34,907 bases of DNA, taken from positions 1-34,907 of the forward strand of contig CAIYZD010000311.1 in the NCBI GenBank assembly GCA_903930585.1, written 5' to 3'. Of the stretch, positions 26,350-34,907 are shown one piece after another (the first letter of the stretch is position 1; each line of letters begins with the position of its first letter). The position numbers and the translations under genes were made by a program. Source of the DNA: an uncultured Geobacteraceae bacterium (GTDB lineage Bacteria > Desulfobacterota > Desulfuromonadia > Geobacterales > Pseudopelobacteraceae). The notes beneath the pieces are model-generated. The model saw nothing but the letters and a program-made list of their open reading frames with translations. It did no database searches and was not told where the DNA came from.

Positions 26350-26682
26350 ATGGCAATACTTTCAATAGATACTATCTCCGAAGGCATGGTCCTGATGTCC
26401 GACGTTCGTGACCGGAGCGGACGCCTGCTTCTGGAATGCGGTACGGAAATTAACGCCAAACATCTTCGCATGTTTCGGACATGGGGGATTACCGAGGCCG
26501 ACATTGTGACCGTTGATGGTCATGCCGATGGCCCGGCTTCCGCCGCGGCTGATCCGGAACTTCTGAGGGATGCGGAAAACGCATTGCGTCCCTTGTTTTG
26601 CAACGCCAACCTGTCCTATCCTGCCATGGGTGAATTGTTCCGACTCTGCCTGCTCAGGAAGGTGCGCAATGAATCCCGCTAA
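26350..26682 (+). CDS. Small protein resembling the N-terminal region of HDOD/HD-GYP proteins
   Basis: ISEGMVLMSDVRDRSGRLLLECGTEINAKHLRMFRTWGITEADIV; overlaps the HDOD start by 14 nt. Confidence 0.7.
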   Translation: MAILSIDTISEGMVLMSDVRDRSGRLLLECGTEINAKHLRMFRTWGITEADIVTVDGHADGPASAAADPELLRDAENALRPLFCNANLSYPAMGELFRLCLLRKVRNESR

Positions 26683-27532
26683 TCTCACGCTTGATTTTCT
26701 GGTCAACGATGCCGTGGTGTATTCGTTGCCGCTGCTCCATGACCGACTCAACCAGGCCATCAATCATCCGCGAAGTTCAATTACCGATATTATCAGGATC
26801 ATTTCCGAGGATGCCGGGCTTTCCTCACGTATTCTAAGGCTGGCAAACAGTCCGATGTTCGGATTTCATTCGGATATTGATTCCATCGGCAAGGCGGTCA
26901 CGATCATCGGGACCCGACAGTTGCACGACCTGGCTATGGCTGTCTCTGTCATGGGAGTCTTCAAAGATATTCCGGAGGGGGTGATCAGCATGACTTCCTT
27001 CTGGCAACACAGTATTACCTGTGGCATTATTGCCCGCATTCTGGCTACCTACCGGCGGGAATCCAATGTGGAACGATTCTTTGTTACGGGCATGTTGCAC
27101 GACATCGGGCAGTTGATTCTCTGTGTCAAGGTGCCGGGGCTGGTGCGGGAGATGATCGTCGCAAGCCGGGATTCGGGTATCGCATACTTTGCCGTCCAGC
27201 GTTCCGTATTGGGTTTTGATCATGGCGCCGTGGGGGGAGAATTGTTGAAACGGTGGAAGATTCCGGCGATCATCACTGAACCGGTGGGGTGTCACCATGC
27301 TCCCGGACGGGCAGAACTGTATCCGATGGAAACTTCGTTGATACATGTGGCTGACGTGATCGCCCATACCATGCAGGTCGGGTTTGTCGGAGAACCATTT
27401 GTTCCTCCCATGGATCAGCGTTCCTGGGAACGACTATCCATTCCGATCAGCCTACTGGCAACCATCATGGACCGGGCTGATGCCCAACTGGGCGAAGCCA
27501 TGGCAATACTTTCAGGAGATGCTCCTTCATGA
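26669..27532 (+). CDS. HDOD domain protein
   Basis: IIRIISEDAGLSSRILRLANSPMFGFHSDIDSIGKAVTIIGTRQLHDLAMAVSVMGVF, FFVTGMLHDIGQLIL; ATG 26669 preceded by aggaaggtgcgca. Confidence 0.9.
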   Translation: MNPANLTLDFLVNDAVVYSLPLLHDRLNQAINHPRSSITDIIRIISEDAGLSSRILRLANSPMFGFHSDIDSIGKAVTIIGTRQLHDLAMAVSVMGVFKDIPEGVISMTSFWQHSITCGIIARILATYRRESNVERFFVTGMLHDIGQLILCVKVPGLVREMIVASRDSGIAYFAVQRSVLGFDHGAVGGELLKRWKIPAIITEPVGCHHAPGRAELYPMETSLIHVADVIAHTMQVGFVGEPFVPPMDQRSWERLSIPISLLATIMDRADAQLGEAMAILSGDAPS

Positions 27533-28920
27533 ATGACACGCCGGAAACCGTATATCTGGAACTTAAGAGACTACAGGAACGTAACCTCTATGTGGAGGAG
27601 CGTAATCTTCGTTACGTCAGCATCCTGGATATGCTGGCCTCCAGCAGCGAATTTCAGGAGGACCTGAACCGGGACAGGGACATTGACTCGATTTTCAACG
27701 CGACTCTGCAACAGGTCAAGCGGTTGCTGGCGTTCACCTATATGGGGTTCTACATGAACTCGGACGAAAGCAGTTTTGAACTACTGAAATGCGATCCTCC
27801 TTCATGCAGGCAGGAGCTTGAAGTTGAGGTTGAAAGCAGAATCATGGATGGCAGTTTTGCCTGGGCCCTCAACCAGAATCGTCCGGTATTGCACTCGGCC
27901 CGCACTGACGGACAGACCTTGATCCTTCACGTTATTACCACCCAATCCCGGATTCGCGGAATGTTTGTGGGGCTTCTTCCCGGCAGTCAGTTAACCGTCG
28001 ATGCTCCATCGCTGAACGCGCTTACGATAATTCTGGTCAATGCGGCGTATGCGCTTGAAAGCGCCACACTCTACACGATGCTTAATGATTCAATGCTTCA
28101 TCTGGAGCAAAAGGTGGAAGAGAGGGTCGAGGAACTGCAAAATGCGCGGCAGTTGGCCGAGGCCGCAAATCGGGCGAAGAGCGCTTTTTTGGCAAACATG
28201 AGCCATGAACTGCGAACTCCTCTGAACGCCACCATCGGGTTTACCGATGTTGTTCTGTCAAAAACGTTTGGCCCCCTGAACGAAGATCAGGAAGAATACC
28301 TCGGGTATGTTCTCCAAAGCAGTCGGCACCTTCTGGAACTGATAAACGACATACTTGACCTGTCCAAGGTTGAGGCAGACAAGATGGAGCTTAGTTTGAG
28401 CAAAGTAACTATTCGTCATCTGCTGGGAAACAGCCTTGTCATGGTCAAGGAGTTGGCCCATCGTCGCAAAGTACAGATCAGGGAGGAGTTTGCTGCCGAT
28501 GTTCCCGTCATTGTCATGGTCGATGAGCGGAAACTAAAGCAGATTATCTACAATCTCCTTTCCAACGCGATAAAGTTTACTCCTGCTGGTGGGAGCGTTA
28601 CGGTCACTGCCCGTTGTTGTCATGACTCTTTGGCATTTCCACCGGATGTGTATGAAAAATTGACAAAAATGGGAACCTGTGCCGCGCAGTACCTCTGCTT
28701 GACGATAACCGATACCGGAATTGGCTTGAAACAGGACGATTTAAATCGTATCTTTAATCCTTTTGAGCAAGCTGACAATACCGAAACCCGCGACTTTGAA
28801 GGGACCGGCCTGGGGCTGGCCCTGGTCAGAAAGCTGCTTGAACTGCATGGAGGAGCAATCTGGGCCGAGAGTGAAGGGGTGGGGAGCGGAAGCTCATTTC
28901 ATCTGGTGTTGCCGGCGTGA
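27529..28920 (+). CDS. GAF-domain sensor histidine kinase
   Basis: H-box AFLANMSHELRTPLNATIGF, N-box LKQIIYNLLSNAIKFTPAGG, G1 DTGIGL, G2 GTGLGLALVRKLLELHGG; ATGA overlap with the HDOD gene. Confidence 0.93.
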   Translation: MNDTPETVYLELKRLQERNLYVEERNLRYVSILDMLASSSEFQEDLNRDRDIDSIFNATLQQVKRLLAFTYMGFYMNSDESSFELLKCDPPSCRQELEVEVESRIMDGSFAWALNQNRPVLHSARTDGQTLILHVITTQSRIRGMFVGLLPGSQLTVDAPSLNALTIILVNAAYALESATLYTMLNDSMLHLEQKVEERVEELQNARQLAEAANRAKSAFLANMSHELRTPLNATIGFTDVVLSKTFGPLNEDQEEYLGYVLQSSRHLLELINDILDLSKVEADKMELSLSKVTIRHLLGNSLVMVKELAHRRKVQIREEFAADVPVIVMVDERKLKQIIYNLLSNAIKFTPAGGSVTVTARCCHDSLAFPPDVYEKLTKMGTCAAQYLCLTITDTGIGLKQDDLNRIFNPFEQADNTETRDFEGTGLGLALVRKLLELHGGAIWAESEGVGSGSSFHLVLPA

Positions 28921-28952
28921 TGTTTGGAAGGATGAGGGATGAGGGATGAGGG

Positions 28953-29345
28953 ATGGAGAATAATAACAATCTGAAAAATATTCTGCTCTGTGATGACAAC
29001 GTGCTGAACCGCAAGTTGATCGCCGCCATGATTACGGGGTTGCCCTATAGTTTCATGGAAGCGGCAAATGGGCGGGAATCACTGGCTCGGGTCCTGTCAG
29101 ACCATGATTCTATCGATCTGGTGCTCCTTGATATCGGAATGAAGGATTTCAGCGGTATTGAAGTCTGCCGGGCCATACGCAGGAGCGAGCAGGACCGGAA
29201 ACGCCCCCTGCCGATTATTGCCTATACGGCCCATGCCATGGTAAATGATCGTGCCAAGTACTTTGCTGTCGGTTTCAATGATATCCTGACCAAGCCAACC
29301 ATGCGAGAGGACCTCTTTGAGATATTGCGTAAATATGTGTCCTGA
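28953..29345 (+). CDS. Single-domain response regulator
   Basis: ILLCDDNVLNRKLI, DLVLLDIGMKDFSGIEVCRAIR, IIAYTAHAM, FNDILTKPTMREDLFEIL. Confidence 0.9.
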   Translation: MENNNNLKNILLCDDNVLNRKLIAAMITGLPYSFMEAANGRESLARVLSDHDSIDLVLLDIGMKDFSGIEVCRAIRRSEQDRKRPLPIIAYTAHAMVNDRAKYFAVGFNDILTKPTMREDLFEILRKYVS

Positions 29346-29414
29346 AGGGTGCCGTAGCGGAAGCAATGTGTTTATGTCATCCGTCGATATAGAACGATCC
29401 AAGGAGTGATCAAC

Positions 29415-29801
29415 ATGAAAACGCTGATTGTCGAAGACGACTTCCTGAGCCGCAAGCTGATGCTTGCCTATCTTACTCCGCTGGGTGAATGCGATGTTGC
29501 CGCCAATGGTCTGGAAGCTCTTGAGGCCTTTGTGCTGGCCTGTGATATGGGGAAATACTACGATCTTGTTACGCTTGATATTATGATGCCCGAGATGAGC
29601 GGGCAGGAGGTTCTCAAGCGGATCCGGAGTATTGAAGAAGAACGGGGCCTTGATGCCGCCCGTGTCGTCATGACGACTGCGCTGCAAGACTCCGTTAATG
29701 TAATGACTGCGTTCAAAAGCCAGTGTGATGGGTATCTGATCAAGCCGATCGAGTCCGAAAAATTACGGGAGCTGTTGCGTACGCTAAACCTGATTGGCTG
29801 A
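29415..29801 (+). CDS. Single-domain response regulator
   Basis: KTLIVEDDFLSRKLMLAYL, DLVTLDIMMPEMSGQEVLKRIR, GYLIKPIESEKLRELLRTL; AAGGAG 8 nt before ATG 29415. Confidence 0.9.
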   Translation: MKTLIVEDDFLSRKLMLAYLTPLGECDVAANGLEALEAFVLACDMGKYYDLVTLDIMMPEMSGQEVLKRIRSIEEERGLDAARVVMTTALQDSVNVMTAFKSQCDGYLIKPIESEKLRELLRTLNLIG

Positions 29802-29862
29802 AATTACGTAGTGAATGTCCGTTTCGGGCACTATTCTGACACAAACGTGACACGGTACGCTT

Positions 29863-31236
29863 ATGAATACTTCAACGGCCACCATACTTGCAATCGACGA
29901 TGATGATATTTCGTTACGCGTTCTTGCCAGATGTCTGAAAGGGTTTGGTTATGACGTGGTTACCGCTTCCGGTGGATTGCAGGCTCTGGAGCTTCTCAAG
30001 CTGCGTGAATTCGACCTGCTGATTTCCGACCTGCGCATGCCGGTTATGGACGGCATAATGTTGATGAAAGAGATTCGTAAGCGGGACATACCTACTCCCT
30101 TTATCGTGGCGACCGCCTGCGGCAGCATTGAAAGTTCGGTTGCCGCCATGCGCAGCGGGGCCTTCGACTACATAGAAAAACCGTACAATCAGGACGATCT
30201 GCAGCTGACGGTGCAGCGTGCGCTTGATTATCATCGGGCCATGACTGAAAATCGTCAGATCAAGGCATACCTGCAGGAACGTTTTACCTTTCAGAACATC
30301 ATAACAGTCAATTCCGCAATGAAAGAAATGCTCAAAATGGCGGCCAAGGTGGCGTCGTACCCGCACACAACCGTTGCTATTTACGGTGAAAGCGGCACCG
30401 GTAAGGAGGTGCTCTCTCAGGCCATCCATTTTGCCAGTACCGGAATGCCGACCGGGTTTGTGGCGGTTAACTGCGCCGCCATTCCGGAACACCTCATGGA
30501 GAGCGAGCTGTTTGGTCATGTTAAAGGCGCTTTCACCGGCGCTGACAGGGATCGTGACGGGAAATTCAGCCAAGCCAGAAACGGTACGCTGCTTCTTGAC
30601 GAGATTGGCGATATGCCGCTTTCCCTGCAGGCCAAGCTTCTGCGCGTCCTGCAGGAGCGCACGTTTGAAAAGATCGGCGGAAGCGCCAGTATCCCACTGA
30701 CCTGCCGGGTCATTGTGGCAACAAACGCCAACCTGCTTCAGCGGGTGGAGGCCGGTTCCTTTCGTGAAGACCTGTACCACCGTATTAACGTGTTTCCTTT
30801 GCTGATTCCTCCGTTACGCGACAGGAAGGATGACATCTGGCAGATATGTGAACACGTTCTGGCCGGACTTCAGCAGCATTTGGGAAAGCCGTTGCCCGGC
30901 ATTTCCCAAAAAGCGATGGATCTGCTTCTTGGCTACGATTGGCCGGGAAATGTGCGCGAACTGCGTAACTGTCTTGAAAGAGCGGCAATTCTCACGTCCG
31001 GCGATCTGATCCGCCCCGAGCATCTCGGTTTGCTCCAGGAAGAGCATCTGTCAGGCAATCCACAGGACACGGATCGGCTGTATACGACCTACAATCTTAA
31101 AATTCCAACGCAGTCGTTGTCGCTTGCATCCCTGACCAGTCAGATTCTCGCTCAGACACTTGAACAATGCCGGGGCAATAAATCAAAGGCAGCCCATCTG
31201 CTGAAAATCGACCGTAAAATGTTCTACCGTGACTGA
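29863..31236 (+). CDS. NtrC-family sigma-54-dependent response regulator (REC-AAA+-Fis HTH, short C-terminus)
   Basis: REC ILAIDDDDISLRVLAR...LLISDLRMPVMDGI; Walker A GESGTGKE, GAFTGA, LLDEIGDMPL; HTH remnant QCRGNKSKAAHLLKIDRKMFYRD then stop. Confidence 0.92.
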   Translation: MNTSTATILAIDDDDISLRVLARCLKGFGYDVVTASGGLQALELLKLREFDLLISDLRMPVMDGIMLMKEIRKRDIPTPFIVATACGSIESSVAAMRSGAFDYIEKPYNQDDLQLTVQRALDYHRAMTENRQIKAYLQERFTFQNIITVNSAMKEMLKMAAKVASYPHTTVAIYGESGTGKEVLSQAIHFASTGMPTGFVAVNCAAIPEHLMESELFGHVKGAFTGADRDRDGKFSQARNGTLLLDEIGDMPLSLQAKLLRVLQERTFEKIGGSASIPLTCRVIVATNANLLQRVEAGSFREDLYHRINVFPLLIPPLRDRKDDIWQICEHVLAGLQQHLGKPLPGISQKAMDLLLGYDWPGNVRELRNCLERAAILTSGDLIRPEHLGLLQEEHLSGNPQDTDRLYTTYNLKIPTQSLSLASLTSQILAQTLEQCRGNKSKAAHLLKIDRKMFYRD

Positions 31237-31335
31237 AGGTGTCAGTTGTACCTATTCCCCTCATACTGTACTATTTTGGTACGGTTGTCGTGTGCTTGCA
31301 GAGTGTAACTATCCGTTATTTCTGTAATACAACTC

Positions 31336-31353
31336 TTGGCACTTAATGTGCTT
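31336..31353 (+). promoter_or_regulatory. Candidate sigma-54 (-24/-12) promoter
   Basis: TTGGCACTTAATGTGCTT: GG at 31338-31339, exactly 10 nt, GC at 31350-31351; near-consensus -24 block TTGGCAC; immediately after an NtrC-type regulator and upstream of the 31408 ORF. Confidence 0.68.
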
Positions 31354-31407
31354 GGGTATTGCTGAAATCGTTGTTATGTCCCCCAAAAGTACACTATGGA
31401 GAGTTCT

Positions 31408-31614
31408 ATGAGCCAGGAAGCGGTGGAGCGTTTATTGGGCAGGTTGTTGACTGATGACTCATTGCGTAAACGGGCTGAAGAGTCCATCGAAGATGTGTGC
31501 AGAGAGATTGGTTACAACCTGAATGCAGGCGAATTGAGCGCTATCAGCCGGGACGATATAATCCGGCTTGGCACGGTGTCATGCCGGATGGACAGGAACA
31601 TCAAGCGATTTTAG
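31408..31614 (+). CDS. 68-aa small protein resembling leader-peptide-like (Nif11/Franean1_4349-type) RiPP precursors
   Basis: MSQEAVERLLGRLLTDDSLRKRAEESIEDVCREIGYNLNAGELSAISRDDIIRLGTVSCRMDRNIKRF; RBS ggagag 4 nt before ATG 31408 (ATG 31396 also in frame). Confidence 0.7.
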   Translation: MSQEAVERLLGRLLTDDSLRKRAEESIEDVCREIGYNLNAGELSAISRDDIIRLGTVSCRMDRNIKRF

Positions 31615-31628
31615 GGAGCAGAGGGAAT

Positions 31629-31709
31629 ATGCAAAAGAATGTAGCAGTGAGTGAAACAGTCGGTTTGTCCGGATGTTGCCGATCCGTTTGGCGTAGAAGC
31701 CAGCCATGA
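31629..31709 (+). CDS. Putative 26-aa micro-ORF, ATGA-coupled to the REC-PP2C gene
   Basis: MQKNVAVSETVGLSGCCRSVWRRSQP*; ggagcagaggg upstream; its TGA (31707-31709) overlaps the ATG at 31706. Confidence 0.4.
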   Translation: MQKNVAVSETVGLSGCCRSVWRRSQP

Positions 31710-32827
31710 GCGAATCAGAATCGACAATACTGATTGTTGACGACAGTCAGCTCAATGTAACCCTGCTTGATGCGATACTTCGTCCGGCCGGATACCGTAC
31801 TCTCAAGGCGCTCTCAGGTCAGGAAGGGAGGCGTCTGGCGCAGCAGCACCAGCCCGCCATGATACTGCTCGACATCACGATGCCGGGGGAAGACGGTTTC
31901 ACGACATGCAGGATTCTCAAGTCGGATCCGCGCACTGCCGACATCCCGGTGATCTTTATTTCCGCCCTTACCGGAGCCGAAAGCAAGGTTTCCGGTTTTT
32001 CCACCGGCGCAGTGGATTACATCACCAAACCCTTCGAAAGAACCGAGGTATTGGCACGGGTCGCGTTGCATCTCCAGATGAGGGAGCGGTTTGTCGCAGC
32101 AGTTCAAAAACAGCACCAGATCCTCGACAAGTTGAAGCGTGCGCAACATGGGATGCTGGTCAAACCGGAGGATATGCCTGAAGCAACATTTGCCGTATGC
32201 TATCGCGCCGTGCATTCGGTCGGGGGTGATTTCTACGACGTCTGTACCACGAAAGACGACTGCTATGCCTATTTTGTGGCCGACGTCAGCGGGCACGACC
32301 TGGAAACGTCGTTTAATACGTCGGCCATAAAGGCTCTCTTTCAGCAAAGTGCCGGGGTAGACAGTTTGCCGGAAGAGGTCTTGCGGGCTATCAACCGCGG
32401 GGTAATTCCTCTGTTTTATTGCAGTGGCATGCATATGACCGCCTGTCTGGTACACCTTGACCGCCGCCTGGCCACGGTGACTCTGGTCAATGCCGGACAT
32501 CTTCCGGTCATCCATCTGTCTGTTGACGGCACAGTGGAACTGATTGAAGCGGAGGGGGATATTCTGGGGGTCTTCGATGAACTGGTGCTTCACCCGATAA
32601 CAAAAAATGTACGGCGGGGAGACCGGCTCTTCATCTACACAGACGGTCTCGTGGAGTTGCACGGAGAGAGTTTGAACCGCAAAGATGGGATCGACACGCT
32701 TTCGTCGCTTTGCCACGAAACAGCCGCACTGCCGTTGCGCGAGGCAATTACGGCGATCTGCTCCCGTATCTGCGACGCCGGTTCTATGCCGGCAGATGAC
32801 ATCATCTTGTTGGGTGTGGAGGTTTAG
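31706..32827 (+). CDS. Response regulator with SpoIIE/RsbU-type PP2C phosphatase output
   Basis: REC ILIVDDSQLNVTLLDAIL...MILLDITMPGEDGF; PP2C VHSVGGDFYDVC, YFVADVSGHDLETS, NAGHLPVIHL, GDRLFIYTDGLVEL, DDIILLGVEV. Confidence 0.93.
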   Translation: MSESESTILIVDDSQLNVTLLDAILRPAGYRTLKALSGQEGRRLAQQHQPAMILLDITMPGEDGFTTCRILKSDPRTADIPVIFISALTGAESKVSGFSTGAVDYITKPFERTEVLARVALHLQMRERFVAAVQKQHQILDKLKRAQHGMLVKPEDMPEATFAVCYRAVHSVGGDFYDVCTTKDDCYAYFVADVSGHDLETSFNTSAIKALFQQSAGVDSLPEEVLRAINRGVIPLFYCSGMHMTACLVHLDRRLATVTLVNAGHLPVIHLSVDGTVELIEAEGDILGVFDELVLHPITKNVRRGDRLFIYTDGLVELHGESLNRKDGIDTLSSLCHETAALPLREAITAICSRICDAGSMPADDIILLGVEV

Positions 32828-33586
32828 ATGCCTGACATACAACGAGACCCGGCGCGGCTCCGAGCGACATTTTCTTCGGATCTTACCAATGTGGACAGTG
32901 TATGCACTGCCGTGCAGCAACTACTTGCGGAGCATGGGCATCCGTCACATTTTCCGTCAAAACTGGTGCTCCGCGAATTGCTCAACAACGCCGTACGTCA
33001 CGGCAACAGGGGAAACCACGATAAGACGGTTGAATGCACGGTACGGATTACCACTGATTCCATCCTGATCGACGTGACGGATGAAGGGGAAGGATTTGCC
33101 TGGCGGGAACGGTTTCCGCCCCCTGATGACGAAACTTCAATTTTGGATGATGAGGGGCAATTGCCCACATCCAGTTACGGCATGAAAATACTGGTCCATT
33201 ATACCAGTAACGTAGAGTTTAACGATAAGGGCAACAGAGTTGCCGTTTGCATAGATAGATACCCAAAAGGAGGCGCTGCAATGTTCTCAGTTCAGAAAGA
33301 GGGTCAGCAGGCTGTACTCAGGCCCGCCGTCAACATAGTCGCCAGTGAAATTGACGTATTGCGTACAGAATTCAAGCAACTGCTGGCGGAAGGGGTGATG
33401 GAATTGATCATTGACCTGTCCGATGTGCAGATGATCGACTCCATGGGACTTGGAGTGCTCATTTCAGCCCACAACTCGCTGAAAAAAGCCGGAGGGACGC
33501 TATCCGTCATCAACGCATCCAAGGAGCTGTACAACCTCTTCCGCAGCATGCGTCTTACCCAACACTTTTCTGTAACTTCCGCCTGA
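32828..33586 (+). CDS. Fusion of RsbW-like HATPase (anti-sigma factor type kinase) and STAS (anti-sigma factor antagonist) domains
   Basis: HATPase_c_2 N-box LVLRELLNNAVRHGNRG and G1 IDVTDEGEGFAW; STAS ELIIDLSDVQMIDSMGLGVLISAHNSLKKAGGTLSVINAS. Confidence 0.9.
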   Translation: MPDIQRDPARLRATFSSDLTNVDSVCTAVQQLLAEHGHPSHFPSKLVLRELLNNAVRHGNRGNHDKTVECTVRITTDSILIDVTDEGEGFAWRERFPPPDDETSILDDEGQLPTSSYGMKILVHYTSNVEFNDKGNRVAVCIDRYPKGGAAMFSVQKEGQQAVLRPAVNIVASEIDVLRTEFKQLLAEGVMELIIDLSDVQMIDSMGLGVLISAHNSLKKAGGTLSVINASKELYNLFRSMRLTQHFSVTSA

Positions 33587-33599
33587 CAAGGGGTAAAAA

Positions 33600-34907
33600 A
33601 TGGATATTTTCGATGACGAATTGCTTGCCGATTACGTGGAAGAATCCCGCGAACATCTGGCGAATATCGAAAGCGACCTTCTCACCATTGAGGAGCAGGG
33701 TGAAAACATTGACCTGGATCTGGTCAACAAAGTGTTTCGCGCTGCCCACTCCATCAAGGGGGGCGCCGGTTTTCTTAACCTCAACACTGTCAAGGACCTG
33801 TCCCACAAGATTGAAAATGTGCTCAGCCTCGTGCGTAACCGCGAACTTGCGCCTACCCCCGATATCGTCAATGTCATGCTGCTCTCGTTCGACAAATTGC
33901 GTGAGCTGATCAACAACCTTCAGGAAAGTGAACAGGCCGATGTGTCTTCACTTATCGATGCGCTCTCCCGCATCATCACACCCGCGCCGGACAGTGGCGG
34001 TGTAGTGGCCGAGCCCCAGGAGGAGACGGTCCTGATTCCGCTGCCGCAAGGAGTCGAATGCATGGCGGCATCGCGCTTCGACCTCACTCAGGCGGCCAAG
34101 GAGGGTAACACGGTCTTCCTTGCGGAATTCGACCTGATCCACGATGTACACCAGCTTTGGCGTACGCCCCATGACCTTATCCGCACCATAGACGGCTGCG
34201 GCCTGCTGCTGGAAAGCATGGTCCCCCTGCTGGATGTGGGAACCCTGGATGACGAACCGGCCAACTGTATCCCCTTTTATGCGCTGATTTCCAGCATGCG
34301 GAGTGCTCAGGAACTCGCCGTCGAACTCAAAATCGGGATTGAGAGGATAACCGTGGTCGCCGCTGCTCCCGGTCCTGCCGCTGCCGCTGATGCCCCTGCT
34401 GAGCCACTGTCTTCCCGCCTGACACTTTCCGGTGCCGTACCGGTTCCGGCTCCCGCTGCCGAATCAACACTTCGTATCGATGTGGCACGGCTGGATTCGC
34501 TGATGAACCAGGTCGGAGAAACGGTGAAGGAGAGAAACCAGCTACAGACGGTCAGCCGCAAGGAGCTCACCCCCGCACCGGTGTCAATAGCGGCGGTCCC
34601 CACGCAGACCGTAACCAAAACGGACATCCCGGCCGCACCGGCAACCGACTCGACGCTACGCATCAACGTTTCCCTGCTGGATACGCTGATGAACCTGGCC
34701 GGCGAGATGGTGCTCGGGAGAAACCAGCTGTTGCAGGCCATCGGCCGCGCCGATGCCAACGCCATTAAGGCTGCCGGCTACCGGATAAACACGGTTACCT
34801 CCGAACTCCAGGAAGCGATCATGTTGACGCGCATGCAGCCTATCGGCACGATATTCAACCGGTTTACCCGTGTTGTACGCGATATGGCGCGCGACCTGAA
34901 CAAAGAG
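33600..34907 (+). CDS. cheA: Chemotaxis histidine kinase CheA (N-terminal part; continues beyond window)
   Basis: Hpt domain LLADYVEESREHLANIESDLLTIE...VFRAAHSIKGGAGFLNL; P3 dimerisation STLRINVSLLDTLMNLAGEMVLGRNQLLQ; open at the window end, so absent from the supplied ORF track. Confidence 0.92.
   Translation, partial: MDIFDDELLADYVEESREHLANIESDLLTIEEQGENIDLDLVNKVFRAAHSIKGGAGFLNLNTVKDLSHKIENVLSLVRNRELAPTPDIVNVMLLSFDKLRELINNLQESEQADVSSLIDALSRIITPAPDSGGVVAEPQEETVLIPLPQGVECMAASRFDLTQAAKEGNTVFLAEFDLIHDVHQLWRTPHDLIRTIDGCGLLLESMVPLLDVGTLDDEPANCIPFYALISSMRSAQELAVELKIGIERITVVAAAPGPAAAADAPAEPLSSRLTLSGAVPVPAPAAESTLRIDVARLDSLMNQVGETVKERNQLQTVSRKELTPAPVSIAAVPTQTVTKTDIPAAPATDSTLRINVSLLDTLMNLAGEMVLGRNQLLQAIGRADANAIKAAGYRINTVTSELQEAIMLTRMQPIGTIFNRFTRVVRDMARDLNKE

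Follow-up and report, generated by a model that had tools for sequence, protein, structure and literature searches.

The window (the whole 34,907-nt stretch of DNA analysed) ends in a dense signalling cluster (26350–34907) that encodes HDOD, histidine kinase, two single-receiver, NtrC-type, REC-PP2C, kinase-STAS and CheA proteins. Near its other end, an IS4/5-family transposase spread across two overlapping ORFs (442–1193; DUF4096 and DDE domain) is adjoined by a XylR_N/V4R sigma-54 activator. Within the signalling cluster, an RsbW-like kinase is joined without a stop to a STAS domain, as the first-pass annotation had read it: the frame is uninterrupted over its 252 codons, and both Pfam domains are found, that of STAS at residues 158–247 (Table 1). 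The stop codon TAG of the REC-PP2C gene abuts the ATG of the fusion. The REC-PP2C protein, the presumed STAS phosphatase, is 72% identical in G207, a genome of another family in the same order, and 67% identical in G014, a relative from the same genus. Both relatives also carry a homologue of the CheA-like protein, which is encoded by the conserved next gene; complete homologues measure about 1040–1100 aa and include Hpt, CheW and REC domains. Most of the larger loci that we examined have the conserved unit of REC-PP2C, kinase, STAS and CheA, in this order. We saw no sigma factor gene adjoining the fusion in the window.

Table 1. Coordinates of the kinase-STAS locus and its neighbours in the window.
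Feature	Position	Strand	Remarks
REC-PP2C (SpoIIE-type) phosphatase response regulator	31706..32827	+	373 aa; Response_reg 3.6e-25, SpoIIE 3e-31
Kinase-STAS fusion ORF	32828..33586	+	252 aa; orthologous fusion in G207, distant fusions in f64
RsbW/SpoIIAB-like HATPase_c_2 domain	32870..33247	+	residues 15-140; PF13581 E 1.3e-15; Foldseek
Internal Shine-Dalgarno sequence AAAAGGAGG in linker codons	33265..33273	+	7 nt before the internal ATG; anti-SD -11.6 kcal/mol
Internal in-frame start and putative free STAS frame	33281..33586	+	101 aa (about 11 kDa)
Ser205, predicted STAS phosphoacceptor	33440..33442	+	Asp204-Ser205 invariant in 31 fused sequences
CheA-like hybrid histidine kinase	33600..34907	+	cut by contig end; Hpt, H-kinase_dim

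The two domains and their joint

AF2 modelled the fusion as two well-folded, confident domains connected by a linker that is disordered at residues 147–150 (pLDDT <50); the relative placement of the domains is unreliable (pTM 0.59), and the model does not distinguish cis from trans docking of kinase and STAS. In Foldseek, the kinase domain matches SpoIIAB (1th8, 1l0o) and RsbW (6m37), and the STAS domain matches 6m36 and 1thn. Since the NCBIfam equivalog scores of the fusion fall far under their cut-offs (SpoIIAB, 23.1 versus 135 bits; RsbW, 19.8 versus 145 bits; SpoIIAA, 34.7 versus 114.75 bits), we regard its domains as relatives, not members, of these named families. The joint itself reads CCA AAA GGA GGC GCT GCA ATG, and no repeats were found around it.

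The kinase has a GHKL fold with N-box and DxGxG motif, and residues E50, N54, D85, G87 and G89 are invariant. What it lacks is the GxG of the G2 motif in the ATP lid: most of the other kinases aligned have an SGRGL-like motif at this place, and those of the window and G207 have SSYGM, without the first Gly of this second ATP-binding motif. The lid is also extended by an insertion of about 12 residues (window 33128–33190, and locus L062). Among 45 aligned kinases, the combination of insertion and SSYGM is restricted to the window and G207, and it renders the activity of these two kinases uncertain. In the STAS fold (Pfam E 5e-13), a phosphorylatable Ser follows an Asp; the serine that had been described as intact is indeed so, being Ser205 within MIDSMGLGVL. 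A scan of the contigs of the genome with the window protein returned two distant kinase relatives only. An ordinary pair of separate STAS and RsbW-like kinase genes is also present in the same genome (G000:C567, L029).

Fused, separate and kinase-deleted relatives

Our homologue search covered the phylum and then family f64, and the survey of separate versus fused genes that the first-pass annotation had proposed found both states. G207 encodes a 253-aa fusion that is 64% identical to the window protein and lies in the same operon. More distant fusions occur in 26 of the 149 genomes of f64, a further family, some of these genomes being assembled in 1–6 contigs. Identity to the window protein over the fusion is mostly ~29–39%, and, as judged by their sequences, most of the f64 fusions are distant homologues of it.

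Separate genes for kinase and STAS are found in many genomes, and the STAS start often lies a few bases from the kinase stop or overlaps it. The two genes share a 4-nt ATGA overlap in L106–L108 and L110, and in L104, L109 and L114 the stop codon TGA of the kinase lies in or beside the Shine-Dalgarno (SD) sequence. As the SD of the STAS gene is located at or over the kinase stop in unfused relatives (e.g. L104, L109, L110 and L114), loss of the stop would give the fused arrangement complete with its internal SD. In two loci, L116 (G678) and L117 (G668), kinase and STAS share a reading frame that a single TGA interrupts, which puts them one substitution from the fused state. At 2896–4827 of L099 (G562) we found a REC-PP2C-HATPase-STAS triple fusion of 644 aa, in which GGAGG and ATG are retained before the STAS domain.

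The kinase can also be missing. In G014 it has been deleted, and phosphatase, STAS and CheA remain. Between REC-PP2C and STAS (G014:C15, L022) there is an 86-nt kinase scar with the in-frame remnant VEFNERVTKVTVPMEKHIKKGE; the scar preserves the TAG-ATG junction, and the C-terminus of the kinase can still be recognised in it (shuffle P=0.001). The STAS protein of G014 has no possible start other than the homologous ATG, and its own SD is present. In G004, the kinase is absent and REC-PP2C and STAS remain. Because STAS persists without a neighbouring kinase in both genomes, it probably has an output besides the adjacent kinase; other HATPase_c_2 proteins exist in both. The trees require a minimum of 4–6 changes between the fused and separate states, a figure that only bounds the number of fusion events, since the backbones of the kinase, STAS and combined trees are weakly supported.

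The internal Shine-Dalgarno sequence and ATG

The first-pass annotation had noted an SD at 33274–33280 followed by an in-frame ATG. Both elements are present, the ATG at 33281–33283; the interval given for the SD is in fact the 7-nt spacer, and the SD lies immediately upstream of it. G207 has the GGAGG core at the corresponding position, even though the encoded KGG has changed to REG, and in the fusions the core occurs in varying codon phases, coding KGG, REG, EEG, RRD, RS or GGS. Since both the phases and the encoded peptides differ, the SD looks conserved as nucleotides. An in-frame ATG at the N-terminus of STAS, scored at model column -1 to +3, is found in 25 of the 31 fused loci.

Anti-SD pairing at the linker ATG has a median of -7.5 kcal/mol (26 fused genes) versus -2.2 for 178 control ATGs, i.e. 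other in-frame ATGs within the same fused ORFs (p=1e-10), a comparison slightly biased towards this result because genes with more than one candidate ATG entered with their best. When synonymous codons were shuffled with the peptide fixed, the observed value was -8.9 versus an expected -6.1 (P=0.0005, 10 clusters); this test took the first ATG and was weighted over ten clusters set by hand, phylogeny not being fully removed, and it controls for the peptide, not for selection of the peptide itself. In 10 out of 10 clusters, the mRNA at the internal ATG has less structure than the greater part of the ORF (Wilcoxon p=0.001), and of 200 shuffles of the start segment of the window, 199 fold as well as the native segment or better. 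Given its KGG peptide, the SD of the window taken alone is not exceptional (synonymous shuffle, p=0.32), and on this test the notion that it is individually improbable did not hold up: the case for the internal start is comparative in its strength. A conserved SD and an in-frame start, the two marks of a functional internal start, are both found, and the comparative data favour the earlier suggestion that the same DNA likely encodes both the fusion and free STAS. A usable ATG at the joint is missing from six fusions (L100–102, L133, L140 and L142); the internal start is therefore not obligatory, and the free product would be dispensable in some lineages.

Proposed mechanism and known systems

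We consider the locus to be, probably, a partner-switch module in which kinase and STAS share one ORF and the kept SD and ATG yield free STAS in addition to the fusion; that one gene gives both products is the most likely reading of the sequence. Fusion, recurrence, operon, conserved internal SD and ATG, and phosphosite are fixed by the data. In the proposed mechanism, a serine kinase of RsbW type would have merged with its substrate, STAS, into one ORF, the ribosome binding site and ATG of the STAS gene being retained in the joint. The products would be (a) a kinase-STAS fusion, flexibly joined by a short linker, and (b) STAS alone, made via the internal start, which would supply STAS in excess over the kinase. 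The kinase would phosphorylate Ser205 on tethered and free STAS alike, the REC-PP2C protein encoded just upstream would remove the phosphate, and the CheA-like hybrid kinase encoded just downstream would control REC-PP2C. Free STAS, unphosphorylated (or phosphorylated), would then bind an output partner. Phosphorylation of Ser205 by the kinase domain and its reversal by the PP2C protein are assigned by homology, as in HsbR-HsbA. We infer that both products are made and that the kinase is active, and likewise the direction of control, the target and the built-in kinase/antagonist ratio that the first-pass annotation had suggested.

The premise that kinase and antagonist are separate proteins describes the usual case but has an exception: in M. 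tuberculosis, Rv1364c combines PP2C, kinase and STAS in a single chain, and it both adds phosphate to a Ser in its STAS domain and removes it (PMC10950880, PMC9138534). Like the window, Rv1364c (PAS-PP2C-kinase-STAS) has kinase and then STAS in one polypeptide and a phosphatase in the same pathway. In the window, by contrast, the phosphatase is a separate gene, and there is a candidate internal start for free STAS, none being described for Rv1364c in the literature examined. PP2C, kinase and STAS in one chain were found only in L099, the domain order of which is that of Rv1364c with REC replacing PAS. HsbR-HsbA of P. aeruginosa and CrsR-CrsA of S. oneidensis resemble the window in bringing REC, PP2C, HATPase kinase/anti-sigma and STAS antagonist into one pathway that is fed by a histidine-kinase/Hpt cascade. 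In these systems, however, kinase and phosphatase form one protein and STAS has a gene to itself, whereas the kinase of the window is fused to STAS: the REC-PP2C frame ends at 32827, and the ORF shared by kinase and STAS opens at 32828. In HsbR-HsbA, the phosphorylation state of STAS decides its binding partner (PMC6482189).

SpoIIAB-SpoIIAA and RsbW-RsbV of Bacillus have in common with the window both folds (Foldseek 1th8, 1thn and 6m36) and the conserved phosphoserine, but they are encoded by separate genes, and the window operon is without a sigma factor gene. In-frame internal initiation, as in infB/IF2 and clpA, similarly gives a long and an N-terminally truncated protein from one ORF; in the window, the short product would differ in that it forms a whole signalling partner by itself, one that serves as the substrate of the N-terminal domain. 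E. coli is known to use more than one in-frame start within a single gene (PMC13245402), how overlapping genes are coupled has been studied thoroughly (PMC6728339), and the G. metallireducens genome paper mentions an anti-anti-sigma gene of Geobacter that carries phosphatase and kinase domains and is frameshifted in two species (PMC2700814). In the literature searched, which mostly excludes subscription journals, we found no description of a partner-switch fusion keeping the substrate's own start. For fusion as such, Rv1364c is a precedent, and internal starts are familiar as a device; what would be new is their recurrent combination.

Several other explanations have to be weighed against a fusion accompanied by free STAS. 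That a missing indel, through sequencing or assembly error, made the fusion might be suspected of a MAG-like assembly in 854 contigs, and the out-of-frame 'gca tag' near the joint, to which the first-pass annotation had pointed as a stop that an indel could restore, is present at 33249–33254. Such an artefact is ruled out as the source of the fusion by its recurrence in G207 and 26 f64 genomes, one of which is in 1 contig, and we regard it as next to impossible. If the fusion alone were made, phosphorylating itself like Rv1364c (PMC10950880), the SD and ATG would be relics of a STAS gene that was once separate, or would merely result from a G/E/K-rich linker. This would fit the six fusions that lack the ATG and the unexceptional SD of the window, and Gly/Glu/Lys/Arg-rich linkers are SD-like by composition, an effect that may contribute in part. 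A relic should decay, yet 25 of 31 fusions, from about 10 linker clusters without a conserved peptide, have kept both ATG and SD, and the codon bias towards the SD and low mRNA structure also argue against it; we judge this explanation unlikely.

A strong SD within an ORF can act as a pause site as well, and this one is located exactly at the domain boundary. That it mainly pauses the ribosome between domains, aiding co-translational folding with little initiation, is nevertheless very improbable, as pausing needs neither an ATG at initiation spacing nor one that lines up with where unfused STAS genes begin. A further explanation concerns the kinase: in the window and G207 it may be a non-catalytic, ATP-gated docking or anti-sigma domain, free STAS being phosphorylated by another kinase. 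The SSYGM motif and lid insertion are in line with this, as are the survival of REC-PP2C and STAS without the kinase in G014 and G004 and the other HATPase_c_2 proteins of these two genomes, but R49, E50, N54, D85, G87 and G89 are all retained, and we hold lost catalysis to be rather unlikely.

If the favoured reading, fusion plus free STAS, is true, internal initiation would hard-wire the kinase/antagonist ratio within one gene, a simple way to set it; modelling of the Bacillus sigma-B switch shows that whether the response is pulsing or monotonic depends on how much kinase is synthesised relative to antagonist (PMC5207722). Possible, though doubtful, is a wider role of this device, recurrent in the order of this genome and in other families of the phylum: selection may keep kinase and substrate joined and free substrate besides, each transcript giving one tethered and several free STAS, with the tethered STAS serving as a built-in competitor or phosphorylation memory, the free STAS as the output, and the substrate excess setting the threshold of the switch. 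The locus family constitutes a natural series (separate, overlapping, divided by one in-frame stop, fused with or without an internal start, triple-fused and kinase-deleted) that shows how neighbouring operon genes can fuse while the second protein stays, and it cautions annotators that such fused ORFs may encode two products.
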